DNA of 10,570 nt. Source: Candidatus Yonathbacteria bacterium CG17_big_fil_post_rev_8_21_14_2_50_43_9 (GTDB lineage Bacteria; Patescibacteriota; Minisyncoccia; Phycocordibacterales; UBA1550). Below are positions 3,229 through 9,973 of the stretch, in pieces. The notes beneath the pieces were generated by a model. It searched no databases. It saw only the letters and a program-made list of their open reading frames with translations, and was not told the origin of the DNA. Every line of letters starts with the position of its first letter. Position 1 is the stretch's first letter. The position numbers and the translations under genes were made by a program. The stretch spans positions 53,002-63,571 of the forward strand of contig PCUO01000007.1 in NCBI GenBank assembly GCA_002771015.1. Reading direction: 5' to 3'.

Positions 3229-3774
3229 ATGAAATCAGCATTTAAAACAATTAAAGAGAGACAGGCAGACGCATTTGATGCGATGAAGAAGGATTTTGGA
3301 TACAAGGCCAAGCTTGCTGCTCCGCGTCTAGTAAAGGTAGTTGTGTCAGCAACAACTGGTCGCTCAAAGGACAAAAATAGAAATGAAATGGTTATTGAAC
3401 GTCTTGCAAAGGTCACTGGACAGAAACCAGCGCTTCGCTCCGCAAAGAAGTCCATCGCGGCCTTCAAGCTTCGTGAAGGAGACAAAATTGGTGTTGCTGT
3501 GACTCTCCGTGGCGCGCGCATGATGGGTTTTCTGGACAAATTTTTCAATGTTGCTATTCCACGTACTCGCGACTTTCGTGGTTATTACAGAAAAAGTATT
3601 GATGAAATGGGTAATCTCACACTTGGTGTAAAGGAGCAAACAATTTTTCCTGAGTGTTCAGACGAAGACATAAAGGACCTTTTTGGTTTAGCAGTTACAG
3701 TTGTGACAACAGCAAAGAACAAGAAGGAGGCAACGGCATTTTTTGATATACTCGGCGTCCCGTTCAAAAAGTAG
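3229..3774 (+). CDS. rplE: 50S ribosomal protein L5
   Basis: L5 binds 5S rRNA in the central protuberance and contacts P-site tRNA and the S13 bridge. The 181-residue protein has the normal length and motifs: RLVKVVVS at 33-40, TGQKPALRSAKKSIAAFKL at 63-81, TLRGARMMGFLDK at 92-104, IPRTRDFRG at 110-118 and FPE at 140-142. The start follows rplX by 11 bases in an AT-rich leader without a Shine-Dalgarno. In most bacteria rpsN follows within tens of bases; here 1384 bases of unrelated DNA separate them. In E. coli the S8 repressor site overlaps the start of rplE; I could not recognise an equivalent. Confidence 0.97.
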   Translation: MKSAFKTIKERQADAFDAMKKDFGYKAKLAAPRLVKVVVSATTGRSKDKNRNEMVIERLAKVTGQKPALRSAKKSIAAFKLREGDKIGVAVTLRGARMMGFLDKFFNVAIPRTRDFRGYYRKSIDEMGNLTLGVKEQTIFPECSDEDIKDLFGLAVTVVTTAKNKKEATAFFDILGVPFKK

Positions 3775-3775
3775 G

Positions 3776-3904
3776 AAAAACCCCTTATTTTAGCGCATTA
3801 CGTCGTTGTTTCATTTTGTCGTCTCGTCGCCGCCGTACAATAAGTACATCTCCGTCGAACGACAAAACTCACGCCTCGTACTGCATCTAAAATAAGTGGT
3901 TTTT
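3776..3904. repeat. 129-nt long imperfect palindrome after rplE
   Basis: AAAAACCCCTTATTTTAG at 3776-3793 faces CTAAAATAAGTGGTTTTT at 3887-3904 with one mismatch. Pairing continues inward: TTTTGTCGT near 3814-3822 faces ACGACAAAA near 3859-3867, and at the centre GTAC (3835-3838) and GTAC (3844-3847) flank an AATAA loop. The whole interval could therefore fold as one long hairpin with internal mismatches. It begins one base after the rplE stop. It may be a MITE-like element or a structured RNA; the outer GG plus T-run could also act as a weak terminator for rplE. Confidence 0.7.
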
Positions 3905-3913
3905 TGCTAAATT

Positions 3914-3948
3914 CAAGCTCCGTTTAGGCTTTGCCTAAACGGAGCTTG
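3914..3948. repeat. Perfect 16-bp inverted repeat
   Basis: CAAGCTCCGTTTAGGC at 3914-3929 and GCCTAAACGGAGCTTG at 3933-3948 are exact reverse complements around a TTT loop. It lies just upstream of the promoter of the first orphan gene. The T-rich run downstream (from 3956) starts 8 bases after the stem and is interrupted, so it is not a textbook terminator. It could serve as a transcriptional punctuation hairpin or as a protein-binding palindrome. Confidence 0.8.
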
Positions 3949-3952
3949 CCTA

Positions 3953-3980
3953 TTGTATTTTTTGGCAGATATGGTATAAT
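3953..3980 (+). promoter_or_regulatory. Sigma70-type promoter for the first orphan gene
   Basis: TTGTAT at 3953-3958 and TATAAT at 3975-3980 are separated by 16 bases, with TGG directly before the -10 box making it an extended -10. The predicted start of transcription, around 3987, leaves a leader of about 50 bases before the ATG at 4040. This is the best promoter match in the window. Confidence 0.65.
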
Positions 3981-4025
3981 TTATATAATTGGATACACAT
4001 GGGGTGTGTTCAAGAGTTCTTTTTC

Positions 4026-4032
4026 AGAGGAG
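4026..4032 (+). promoter_or_regulatory. Strong Shine-Dalgarno for the first orphan gene
   Basis: AGAGGAG, seven bases before the ATG at 4040, is close to the consensus. It decides the start in preference to the upstream in-frame TTG at 3989 and to the overlapping frame starting at 3999. The ribosomal genes in this window have nothing comparable. Confidence 0.75.
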
Positions 4033-4039
4033 AAATATT

Positions 4040-4258
4040 ATGCCAAAGGGGACGCTTTTTGCAAGCAAACTTGGTTCGGATTCCATTTTGGAAACCGAGC
4101 ATTTGGATGACCACGGAACAGCAGACGGACTGGCCATTGAAGGTAGCCCTGTCAATCTGTACGGCGTGCACGACGATAAAGAAAACAGCTATGGACGCCG
4201 GTTCAGTGGCCAGGCATTCTTTGCCTTTGGGGGCAATGTCGGTTGCATGCATGCATAA
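4040..4258 (+). CDS. Hypothetical small protein (orphan gene A in the rplE-rpsN insert)
   Basis: I do not recognise this 72-residue protein. It starts MPKGTLFASKLGSDS and has an acidic, His-rich middle (TEHLDDHGTADG, GVHDDKENS). The end is aromatic and glycine-rich (RRFSGQAFFAFGG) with a single Cys at 70. There is no membrane segment, signal peptide or known motif. It sits in a self-contained unit: extended -10 promoter, AGAGGAG site, ORF and intrinsic terminator. Codons such as CTG, AGC, GCC and CGG are used, which the neighbouring ribosomal genes largely avoid, suggesting different selection or recent acquisition. The open frame is short and could be fortuitous, but the promoter, Shine-Dalgarno and terminator around it argue for a real gene. 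Confidence 0.55.
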   Translation: MPKGTLFASKLGSDSILETEHLDDHGTADGLAIEGSPVNLYGVHDDKENSYGRRFSGQAFFAFGGNVGCMHA

Positions 4259-4319
4259 AAGCAATATTGGTATTTGTAACATATGTAACACAAAAATAAA
4301 ACCAAAATAAATTCTAAAC

Positions 4320-4346
4320 AGGCGTCTCAAAAAGGCGCCTTTTTTG
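4320..4346 (+). terminator. Intrinsic terminator after orphan gene A
   Basis: AGGCGTC (4320-4326) pairs with GGCGCCT (4334-4340), seven pairs including one G-U, around a TCAAAAA loop. A run of six T follows (4340-4345). It lies about 60 bases after the stop of the 72-residue gene and faces along the operon. Confidence 0.8.
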
Positions 4347-4359
4347 TTGCCGAGAAGAC

Positions 4360-4388
4360 TTGCGTTATTGACGAATAAATGGTAATAT
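4360..4388 (+). promoter_or_regulatory. Probable promoter for the second orphan gene
   Basis: TTGCGT at 4360-4365 and TAATAT at 4383-4388 are spaced 17 bases apart. TGG immediately precedes the -10 box, as in the promoter of the first orphan gene. It lies directly after the preceding terminator. The implied leader before the ATG at 4461 is about 65 bases. Confidence 0.5.
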
Positions 4389-4430
4389 TTTTCACAGTTA
4401 ATCATGAGTTCTGTGGTTATTTATGGTAGT

Positions 4431-4460
4431 GTTCTTATCCCCTTTTTAAGGGAGAAGAAC
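4431..4460 (+). promoter_or_regulatory. Hairpin masking the Shine-Dalgarno of orphan gene B
   Basis: GTTCTT (4431-4436) pairs with AAGAAC (4455-4460), and after one mismatch T-CCC (4438-4441) pairs with GGG-A (4450-4453), giving about 10 pairs around a T-rich loop. The 3' arm contains the ribosome binding site (AAGGGAG, 4448-4454) and ends directly against the ATG at 4461. In the folded state the site would be hidden, which fits a translational switch. A DNA operator palindrome is the alternative. Confidence 0.5.
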
Positions 4461-4920
4461 ATGTCAATTTGCAATTCAAGTACAGGCAGTAAGTAATCCT
4501 ACTCATGATTTATGTGTAGAGGTTACTCAGGCTGGGTACGGGCACATTGTATCTGGGTGTTACAGCGCTTTCCACGACAACAGCGACGATCTCCCAGAGT
4601 TGCTTATTGCTGGTGACGAGGCACAGCCGTTTTGGGACAATGAGTATGTCCACAATAACAGCATCTCAACTAGCGATGACAACGAGACTCAGTATTCGTC
4701 TTTGGATGCCATGGTTGTGGCAGAAGAAAGGGAATACTGTGTTTACCCAAGGAGTGAAGACAAACCCTCACCACCAAGAAAAATGAAAAAGGCGGGGTCG
4801 GTGTGCAGAAAACTTGATTGTTATGAAACGGGCTCATCGGCTCATTCCCGCATTCAGGCTTGGTTTGCTGACAAAACCAGTAAATATCCGATGGTCATCG
4901 GGCCACTGCGTATCACCTGA
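4461..4920 (+). CDS. Hypothetical protein, apparently frameshifted near its start (orphan gene B)
   Basis: An ATG at 4461 with a good Shine-Dalgarno opens a frame that stops after 11 codons (TAA 4494-4496). The +1 frame is open from 4450 to a TGA at 4918-4920 but has no ATG or GTG near its beginning; its first plausible start is a TTG at 4600, giving 106 residues. A +1 shift or one extra base between 4464 and 4493 would join them into about 152 residues. The joined product is hydrophilic and acidic in the middle (SGCYSAFHDNSDDLPELL, ISTSDDNETQYSS), has five cysteines in the long frame, and a basic stretch (PPRKMKKAGSVCRKLDC). I recognise no family or membrane segment. It may be a decaying gene, a sequencing error or recoded. 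An intrinsic terminator follows. Confidence 0.45.
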
Positions 4921-4939
4921 GACTTACCTCATTTTTCAC

Positions 4940-4966
4940 AAAAGGCACCCAGCGGTACCTTTTTTC
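4940..4966 (+). terminator. Intrinsic terminator after orphan gene B
   Basis: AAAAGGCACC (4940-4949) pairs with GGTACCTTTT (4954-4963), nine of ten positions, around a CAGC loop, followed by a T-run to 4965. It starts 20 bases after the stop at 4920. With the terminator at 4320-4346 it would block read-through from rplE into rpsN unless transcription restarts downstream. Confidence 0.7.
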
Positions 4967-4976
4967 TTTGAAGGGG

Positions 4977-5004
4977 TTGACTATATTCCACCATATGATA
5001 GGAT
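4977..5004 (+). promoter_or_regulatory. Possible promoter for the rpsN-map block
   Basis: TTGACT at 4977-4982 and TAGGAT at 4999-5004 are 16 bases apart, directly downstream of the terminator of orphan gene B. The -35 match is good and the -10 match is only fair. Function would require it to drive the second half of the spc cluster through a leader of about 150 bases. Confidence 0.4.
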
Positions 5005-5014
5005 GCTTCTATAG

Positions 5015-5104
5015 GTTTTTTGAGCAATCCGCGCACCTCCTTTTGAAGACAATTGCGCAAGCAAAGGTCTTCAAAAGAATCTGCGTGCGATATTGCTGAA
5101 AAAC
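5015..5104. repeat. 90-nt imperfect palindrome upstream of rpsN
   Basis: CTTTTGAAGAC (5040-5050) and GTCTTCAAAAG (5067-5077) pair perfectly around a 16-base loop that itself contains TTGCGCAA. Pairing extends outward through CGCGCA against TGCGTGCG and through TTTTTTGAGCAAT against ATTGCTGAAAAA. The full stem spans about 37 bases per arm with mismatches. It could be a MITE-like repeat or a structured mRNA leader. Confidence 0.7.
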
Positions 5105-5115
5105 GAGTGATGCTC

Positions 5116-5158
5116 GGTTGCGATTTTAAACTTCGCTATCGCTAAAATAAAATCAACC
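5116..5158 (+). promoter_or_regulatory. Leader hairpin ending at the rpsN start codon
   Basis: GGTT (5116-5119) and GATTTTA (5122-5128) pair with TAAAATC (5148-5154) and AACC (5155-5158), 11 pairs with a two-base bulge. The loop contains CTTCGCTATCGCT. The stem ends directly against the ATG at 5159. It is the third such structure in the window and shares AAAATCAACC-ATG with rplV. Confidence 0.5.
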
Positions 5159-5344
5159 ATGGCAAAAACATCAGTAACTGCGCGCGCCAACAAGGTGCCT
5201 AAATTCAGCTCACGCATTGTGCGTCGTTGTTTTAACTGTAGCCGTCGTCGCGGTTATATGCGCGATTTTGACCTTTGCCGTATTTGTTTCCGCGAGCTTG
5301 CCAATGATGGCAAGATTCCTGGAGTAAAGAAGTCTTCTTGGTAA
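5159..5344 (+). CDS. rpsN: 30S ribosomal protein S14, zinc-binding (type Z)
   Basis: S14 binds 16S rRNA in the 30S head beside S3 and S10. This is the short, 61-residue form with an intact zinc ribbon: C24-F-N-C27 and C40-R-I-C43. The family ending GxIPGVKKSSW is present. Zinc-dependent S14 of this size is usual in Gram-positives and many other lineages, whereas Proteobacteria such as E. coli carry a longer zinc-free form. The ATG at 5159 gives the family N terminus (MAKTS). rpsH follows after 12 bases. The gene is separated from its normal upstream neighbour rplE by the 1.4-kb insert, so it may head a new transcription unit. Confidence 0.97.
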   Translation: MAKTSVTARANKVPKFSSRIVRRCFNCSRRRGYMRDFDLCRICFRELANDGKIPGVKKSSW

Positions 5345-5356
5345 TTTCTATTTATT

Positions 5357-5746
5357 ATGCACGACCCAATTTCAGATATGCTTATTCGCATTAAGAACGG
5401 AGGTACAGCCGGCAAGGAAATTGTCGAGATGCCTTTTTCTAATGTGAAAGAAGCAATAGCTAAAGTTCTTTTTACAGAAGGATACATTACATCCTACGCA
5501 AAGAAAGGAAAGAAAGTTCAAAAGACTCTTGAGGTTGGCATTGCATACGAAGGAAAGACTCCCCGTGTTTCAGACTTAGCGCGTATGTCAAAGCCATCAC
5601 GCCGTTTCTATCTCGGCGCTGATGAGATAAAGCCAATCAAGAATGGTTTTGGTTTGATGGTTATGTCTACGCCAAAAGGTATTATGACAGGAGCTGATGC
5701 AAAGAAAGGTCGAGTTGGAGGCGAAGCTCTCTTTAAAATCTGGTAA
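5357..5746 (+). CDS. rpsH: 30S ribosomal protein S8
   Basis: S8 binds the central domain of 16S rRNA and in E. coli also represses the spc operon by binding its mRNA. The 129-residue protein is of standard size. Motifs are DPISDMLIRIKN at 3-14, ARMSKPSRRFYLG at 75-87, KNGFGLMVMSTPKGIMT at 95-111 and the C-terminal VGGEALFKIW. The start has no Shine-Dalgarno; the leader is TAATTTCTATTTATT. It is co-directional with rpsN 12 bases upstream and rplF 23 bases downstream. Confidence 0.97.
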   Translation: MHDPISDMLIRIKNGGTAGKEIVEMPFSNVKEAIAKVLFTEGYITSYAKKGKKVQKTLEVGIAYEGKTPRVSDLARMSKPSRRFYLGADEIKPIKNGFGLMVMSTPKGIMTGADAKKGRVGGEALFKIW

Positions 5747-9914: not shown

Positions 9915-9973
9915 GTCATTGCGAGTCATGGAGCAATCTAGATTTCATGGATTGCTTCATGTCTCGCAATGAC
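9915..9973. repeat. GTCATTGCGAG palindromic repeat between adk and map
   Basis: The left arm at 9915-9938 starts GTCATTGCGAG and ends AGCAATC. The right arm at 9950-9973 is its reverse complement at 22 of 24 positions, the outer 11 being perfect. The loop is 11 bases. Repeats beginning GTCATTGCGAG and ending GCAATC are, from memory, widespread in unrelated bacterial genomes as small non-autonomous palindromic elements. It lies eight bases after the adk stop codon. Confidence 0.8.

Follow-up and report, generated by a model that had tools for sequence, protein, structure and literature searches.

The spc operon in the 10,570-nt stretch of DNA analysed here (the window) is, in our fairly confident reading of its sequence, split into two transcription units, with feedback, probably by ribosomal protein S8, acting before rpsN and with accessory genes lodged in a neutral gap between the units. 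The junction of rplE and rpsN carries a long spacer, a promoter motif, a structured leader with a recurrent core layout, and orphan genes (Table 1). The source is a metagenome-assembled genome of 638 kb in 41 contigs, whose nearest named relatives are Ca. Yonathbacteria; more distant ones carry Kaiser-, Campbell-, Taylor-, or Nomurabacteria in their titles. To our knowledge, the control of ribosome synthesis has been little studied in Patescibacteria.

Table 1. Features of the rplE–rpsN region and copies of a second leader-like element. Positions are those of the window unless a locus label precedes them.
Feature	Position	Strand	Remarks
rplE (uL5), final gene of the upstream spc part	3229..3774	+	matched in 59/61 genomes, no match in two
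Large imperfect palindrome bounded by an A-run and a T-run; probably terminates the rplE unit	3776..3904	+	RNA fold −46.1 kcal/mol, z −7.1
16-bp perfect hairpin, terminator-like	3914..3948	+	
Promoter-like site of ORF1, TTGGCA-16-TATAAT	3962..3989	+	11/12 consensus matches
SD-like GAGGAG, on the 3' side of a small hairpin upstream of ORF1	4027..4032	+	
ORF1, 72-aa orphan protein	4040..4258	+	purifying selection
Intrinsic-terminator-like hairpin after ORF1	4320..4340	+	
ORF2, orphan protein, frame interrupted near its start here	4461..4920	+	SD-like AAGGGAG at 4448-4454
Promoter-like site of the rpsN unit, TTGACT-16-TAGGAT, TG before −10	4977..5004	+	
rpsN leader RNA with S8-site-like core	5018..5100	+	R1 match G000:C3:58019-58101, E 1.8e-19 (not independent, the window leader being among the R1 training sequences)
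rpsN (uS14), opening the second unit	5159..5344	+	
rpsH (uS8), presumed repressor	5357..5746	+	12 nt after rpsN
Second leader-like element before rplV	85-260		fold z −3.8
Second leader-like element before rplN	2398-2510		fold z −4.6
Second element before rpsS	L297:12624		
Second element, rplM	L300:1773	−	
Second element, rplK	L302:13943		
Second element, rpoC	L304:3090		
Second element, rmuC	L298:16605		
Second element, other loci, rpsN of G058	L095:1811		
Second element, other loci, rplX	L068, L084		

The 1.4-kb gap that the preliminary description had reported within the spc cluster was confirmed, with rplE ending at 3774, rpsN starting at 5159, and 1,384 bp between them. The content described for it, two small genes with palindromes and terminators, held in part: two small ORFs and several hairpins are present, but the frame of ORF2 is broken, and the last ~180 nt of the presumed insert (4977-5158) are the upstream region of rpsN, consisting of its promoter-like site and leader, which are kept in relatives.

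A search of 61 genomes (the source genome, 15 of the genus, and 45 of the order) was combined with 80 named loci, of which 26 were assigned to the order by title and identity and 54 to other lineages. The two genes were joined in 45 genomes of the order, with spacers of 46–4,233 nt (median, 634 nt; more than 500 nt in 25 of the 45), and unjoined in 14, through either contig ends or true separation. The 26 named order loci, some of which duplicate the 61 genomes (L096 = G013), yielded 19 spacers of 170–3,502 nt and seven loci without rpsN. Outside the order, the spacer measured −1 to 167 nt (median, 21 nt; 54 loci), in agreement with the earlier statement that so long a gap is unusual among bacteria, and the difference exceeds chance; the ranges inside and outside the order overlap at the short end. 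Because spacers are long or variable in the order and short in other lineages, the rplE–rpsN break appears to be a character of the order that contains Ca. Yonathbacteria.

Spacer occupants varied, with orphan small ORFs in the genus and unrelated genes in other genomes of the order, including a response regulator, an aminotransferase with a decarboxylase, and an AAA protein; in G003, an integrase lies next to small ORFs. The spacer thus appears as a free slot in the order, which fits the earlier suggestion that the insert is tolerated. The empty site that the preliminary description had proposed looking for was found elsewhere in the genus, in G006 (247 nt) and G015 (234 nt), where the spacer holds only a terminator, the promoter-like site, and the leader; these spacers are compatible with loss as much as with gain. 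The constant part of the region is its 3' end, comprising the promoter-like site of rpsN and, in part of the order, the leader.

Of the 45 spacers of the order, 40 had this promoter-like site with a score of 10 or more out of 13, and in 39 of those 40 no more than 5% of shuffles matched the score. Its form is TTGAC, a gap of 16–18 nt, usually TG, and TA...T; scores below 10 were obtained in G049, G046, G030, G028, and G051. In a strict scan of the 40 spacers of at least 100 nt, 14 had a terminator-like hairpin in the first 200 nt behind rplE (0.13 expected) and 26 had none; among the latter was the window spacer, whose palindrome and 16-bp hairpin were detected by other hairpin and fold scans. 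The strict scan superseded a looser first one (19/45 spacers, 2.6 expected). The palindrome is also present in G003 and in G009, where its outer arm is altered on both sides.

ORF1 is, judging from its substitution pattern, a real gene under strong purifying selection, since comparison with G013 gave a dN of 0.128 and a dS of 1.48. ORF2 is conserved too (dN 0.123, dS 0.286 to G013); its dS is five times below that of ORF1, and recombination is one possible cause of the low value. The interruption of ORF2 near its start is a 4-bp tandem repeat lacking in G013, whose copy is open (152 aa); it may reflect recent decay or an assembly error. Upstream of ORF2 the scan yielded no promoter, and a terminator-like hairpin with a T-run, seen by eye at about 4940-4965, lies behind it.

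Protein searches revealed homologues of ORF1 in G013, G005, and G009 (16 genus genomes, E ≤ 1) and of ORF2 in G013 (whole) and G003 (end only) among the 61 genomes. When profiles were run against 297 genomes of the order, that of ORF1 matched its four source genus rows plus three weak ones, and that of ORF2 matched its five source genus rows, including a divergent G014 protein, plus two weak ones. Apart from these few weak matches, both ORFs appear confined to the genus and to this slot. Pfam gave nothing over threshold for ORF1 or the G013 copy of ORF2 (best, DUF397 with ORF2, E 0.086), and the AlphaFold models were poor (mean pLDDT of 37.5 for ORF1 and 54.0 for ORF2). The motif TTCAAGAGTTCTTT of the ORF1 leader was no genomic repeat, with 15 hits at up to two mismatches versus 17 for the reversed-pattern control.

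In a 15-genome tree based on three proteins, the window genome (G000 in the tree and in the R1 labels), G003, G013, G009, and G005 formed one clade with 92% support. The ORF1 carriers and the ORF2 carriers from plain searches all fall inside this clade, and possible distant members in G010 and G014 fall outside it. Judged by conservation of the interval, the test proposed in the preliminary description, the module would be ancestral to one clade of the genus rather than inserted. The proposal that the 1.4 kb is a mobile unit that arrived recently and is tolerated in the operon is very improbable: the integrase in the G003 spacer, the empty sites of G006 and G015, and the large palindromes are in its favour, but the unit occurs as a single copy in its own genome, plain searches place ORF1 and ORF2 only in this slot, the order profiles add few matches beyond their source rows, and the carriers form one clade. 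Furthermore, no transposase-like ORF was seen in the window spacer, and Pfam showed no transposase or integrase in ORF1 or the G013 copy of ORF2. Recent mobile insertion was rejected on the lack of other copies, the slot-only homologues, and the single clade of carriers. A chimeric assembly, conceivable for a genome in 41 contigs, is improbable in the extreme, with ORF1 identically placed in the separate assemblies of G013, G005, and G009 and with a 199-kb contig of G013 showing equal gene order and both ORFs.

The preliminary description had also considered that the two genes exploit ribosomal expression, which became less likely with the strong promoter-like site and terminator that ORF1 has of its own. 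A functional tie of ORF1 and ORF2 to ribosome synthesis, with retention for co-regulation, could draw on the strong purifying selection on ORF1 and on a slot common to a clade; it is nevertheless a poor prospect given these separate signals, SD-like leaders that differ from those of the ribosomal genes in the window, the absence of both ORFs from other genus genomes, and the interruption of ORF2.

The SD-like motifs of ORF1 and ORF2 sit in a small hairpin, although the 16S 3' ends examined deviate from the anti-SD. Ten of these ends (loci L251-L259 and L261) read GUGAAUCAAUUC or similar, not GAUCACCUCC; of six 16S loci followed for ~420 nt, three were without CCTCC and three had one 135–345 nt downstream. 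Among 133 ORFs of the genome, taken from their first ATG, there was no SD enrichment (6% at −18..−4 versus 4–10% further upstream). The pattern TCTTT-N-RRGGRGAA-N-ATG, derived from leaders of the ORF1/ORF2 type and without an exact match at ORF2 of the window, gave 17 hits in the 16 genus genomes versus four for its reverse; six of the hits were in the rplE–rpsN spacer, seven at other plausible gene starts, and four elsewhere. Loci with the SD-like hairpin pattern were L305, L307, L308, L313, L314, L318, and L321.

The rpsN leader was followed with a covariance model, R1, built from 14 aligned genus leaders and the structure seen in single folds; five of six such folds had z-scores of −4.2 to −6.4, and the sixth, from G041, −1.0. 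The leader occurs in 14 of the 16 genus genomes; the contig of G008 ends inside it (partial match), and no rpsN was found in G012. The distance from the end of the GATATY motif to the start codon was 22–28 nt in 10 of these 14 genomes and 46, 64 (window), 86, and 123 nt in the other four. At E ≤ 0.1, R1 matched 24 of the 61 genomes, with the match before rpsN in 22; those outside the genus with a match before rpsN were G035, G040, G055, G049, G051, G053, G041, and, weakly, G020. Weak matches not before a known rpsN were found in G054 (E 0.05), G030 (E 0.07), and L106 (E 0.41).

At E ≤ 0.01, R1 matched 36 of the 297 order genomes (20 of 165 genera), 29 of them outside the genus and seven being genus genomes used in the model. 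The match precedes rpsN in all 30 of the 36 neighbourhoods that were examined, and all 25 fetched loci lie 17–205 nt before rpsN with rpsH behind; the checked loci span 13 family labels besides that of the window. R1 gave one match (E 0.13) on the 54 loci outside the order and none in 261 of the 297 order genomes under strict filters, which lose weak matches. As the leader is missing from most genomes of the order, it is unnecessary for the operon split. Searched at E ≤ 0.1, Rfam 15 had no family matching the leader in any of 20 loci, and the window leader was likewise without a match over threshold. Differently built rpsN leaders, partly titled Kaiserbacteria (L108, L109, L114, L117, and L118), have the core GATYC...GGRATATC and a separate GCAAGG / CUCCUU part; four single folds of this type gave z-scores of +0.03 to −2.3.

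Compensatory change supports the predicted fold of the leader. In the genus set, 92.1% of positions were paired and the covariation score was 0.367 versus 0.188 in shuffled alignments (0/500 reached it); four of five measures beat all shuffles, and the number of pair types was not above them (199/500 reached it). A second set, a sequence-only alignment, comprised 23 leaders of other genera and left out L272 and L290, two of the 25 hits, which have long loops. RNAalifold predicted 24 pairs in this set, 20 of them with compensatory change. In a 22-pair version, to which 596:644 and 597:643 were added by hand, unpredicted by RNAalifold, 90.9% of cells pair, 17 of the 22 pairs show two-sided change, and the covariation score was 0.544 versus 0.217 shuffled (0/500 reached it); sliding the alignment by one to three columns cut pairing to 38–56%.

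In E. coli numbering, which we mapped ourselves onto both leader and host 16S, the core has Y595-R596-A597-U598-C599 on one side and G639-A640-Y641-A642-U643-Y644 on the other; three positions face four between U-A and, in most cases, U-G, and position 642 is A. The passages of PMC4176348 on the S8 site describe an invariant A642, a 595-(596-644) triple, and a seven-nucleotide internal loop, with G595 in T. thermophilus and isosteric 597/641/643 combinations also occurring. A642, U598-A640, C599-G639, and a 596-644 pair (A-U, G-C, or G-U) were found in 23/23 leaders; the E. coli identities A595 and G597-C643 were not, with U or C at 595 and A-U at 597:643 in 23/23. The S8 of the window retains S-T of the RNA-binding tripeptide, as STP (for the role of the tripeptide, see the corresponding part of PMC4176348). 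R1 gave no match to helix 21 in 12 host 16S loci with filters off; that helix reads UUAGUC/GAAACGG in the 11 genes examined and seems to be reduced, lacking the 595/644 part.

The same passages place S8 repression in E. coli at this element of the spc mRNA, upstream of rplE (PMC4176348). The rpsN leader resembles that site and 16S helix 21 as a structured element in an S8-encoding mRNA, and it shares the internal loop bearing A642, U598-A640, and the 596-644 pair. Unlike the E. coli site, it lies before rpsN behind its own promoter-like site, has a pyrimidine at 595 and A-U at 597:643, and carries a long apical stem, a second conserved loop, and a one-nucleotide bulge. The structure is conserved upstream of the S8 gene, and the promoter-like site suggests that it belongs to the 5' UTR. 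Alternatively, the leader could mediate feedback by a different ligand, for instance S14 or a further protein of the unit, with a coincidental S8-like core, in keeping with the deviations at 595 and 597:643, the failure of R1 to match helix 21, and the second conserved loop, with its CUCCUU / RAAGAA part, which we read as having no counterpart in helix 21. We regard this as unlikely: the S8-like layout recurs in 23 leaders, the unit has rpsH in second place, and the compact core GATYC..GGRATATC, a pattern picked post hoc, is also found in differently built leaders at five of 16 named loci.

From these features we infer separate transcription, S8 binding, repression, and insulation. In this reading, two transcription units would replace the single operon across the order, divided between rplE and rpsN, with a terminator-like hairpin ending the rplE unit in some genomes and a sigma70-type promoter-like site starting the rpsN unit in most. 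A conserved hairpin, its core mimicking the S8-binding part of 16S helix 21, would stand at the start of the second unit's mRNA in the genus and in 13 further family-level groups that were checked. S8, the product of rpsH, a gene that immediately follows rpsN (at 11–14 nt in ten other genus genomes measured), would in its free form bind this hairpin near the rpsN start and shut off the translation of rpsN together with that of its coupled genes, a loop that would equal the E. coli spc feedback relocated from rplE to rpsN. ORF1 and ORF2 would be residents of an insulated gap, which unrelated genes could occupy harmlessly because terminator and promoter insulate it; the insert would thereby be explained, and the surprise would lie in the frame around it rather than in the insert itself.

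Whether the leader represents a new class in Patescibacteria, with S8 feedback moved to a promoter-plus-hairpin before rpsN after the operon split, a core imitating the general S8 site although the site in the host 16S has drifted, and a second conserved loop, seems to us evenly balanced. As in the leaders of Eckert and Weinberg 2020 (PMC7247131), a conserved RNA backed by covariation precedes ribosomal protein genes; a term search of its main text gave no hit for uS8, uS14, Parcubacteria, or Patescibacteria and found "protein S8" in the references only. No patescibacterial leader for rpsN or S8 was named in the titles that literature searches listed, although this does not prove that none has been described. 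Published cases of foreign genes within a conserved ribosomal cluster, as far as their available portions describe them, lie between operons or between rplL and rsmC in Gammaproteobacteria and Bacilli, whereas the present break is inside spc, order-wide, and accompanied by a leader and promoter-like site. The leader is a candidate RNA–protein pair open to testing and suggests how a highly conserved operon may break yet keep its feedback; split and insulation would account for the gathering of unrelated genes at this junction.

A second leader-like element was observed, with arms CCCAGTTAAAT / ATTTAACNGGG around one or two hairpins (three-way junction) and the tail GATTTT...AAAATCAACC-ATG. In ~196 kb of the source genome there are seven two-armed copies, each before an ORF of the same orientation and 38–44 nt from the ATG, with the L11 copy at 118 nt; sites with one good arm (L295:18287 and L299:17161) were excluded. 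The genes behind the copies encode S19, L22, L14, L13, L11, RpoC, and RmuC, of which L13, RpoC, and RmuC were confirmed by Pfam and S19 and L11 were named by eye, the 32-aa S19 piece having no Pfam match. The element had no match in one shuffled set and no Rfam match near the window copies, and the loci from other genomes, chosen for their ribosomal genes, are a biased sample for it. It is possibly a multi-operon growth regulon or a palindromic repeat. The rplE of G009 (L091, G009:C2:6689-7191) is divided between two overlapping reading frames, one with residues 1-99 and the other with 110-181, through either a frameshift or an assembly error. At 9915-9973 of the window, between an adenylate-kinase-like gene and the one that follows, a 24-nt inverted repeat with 92% complementarity has the appearance of an intergenic palindromic repeat.
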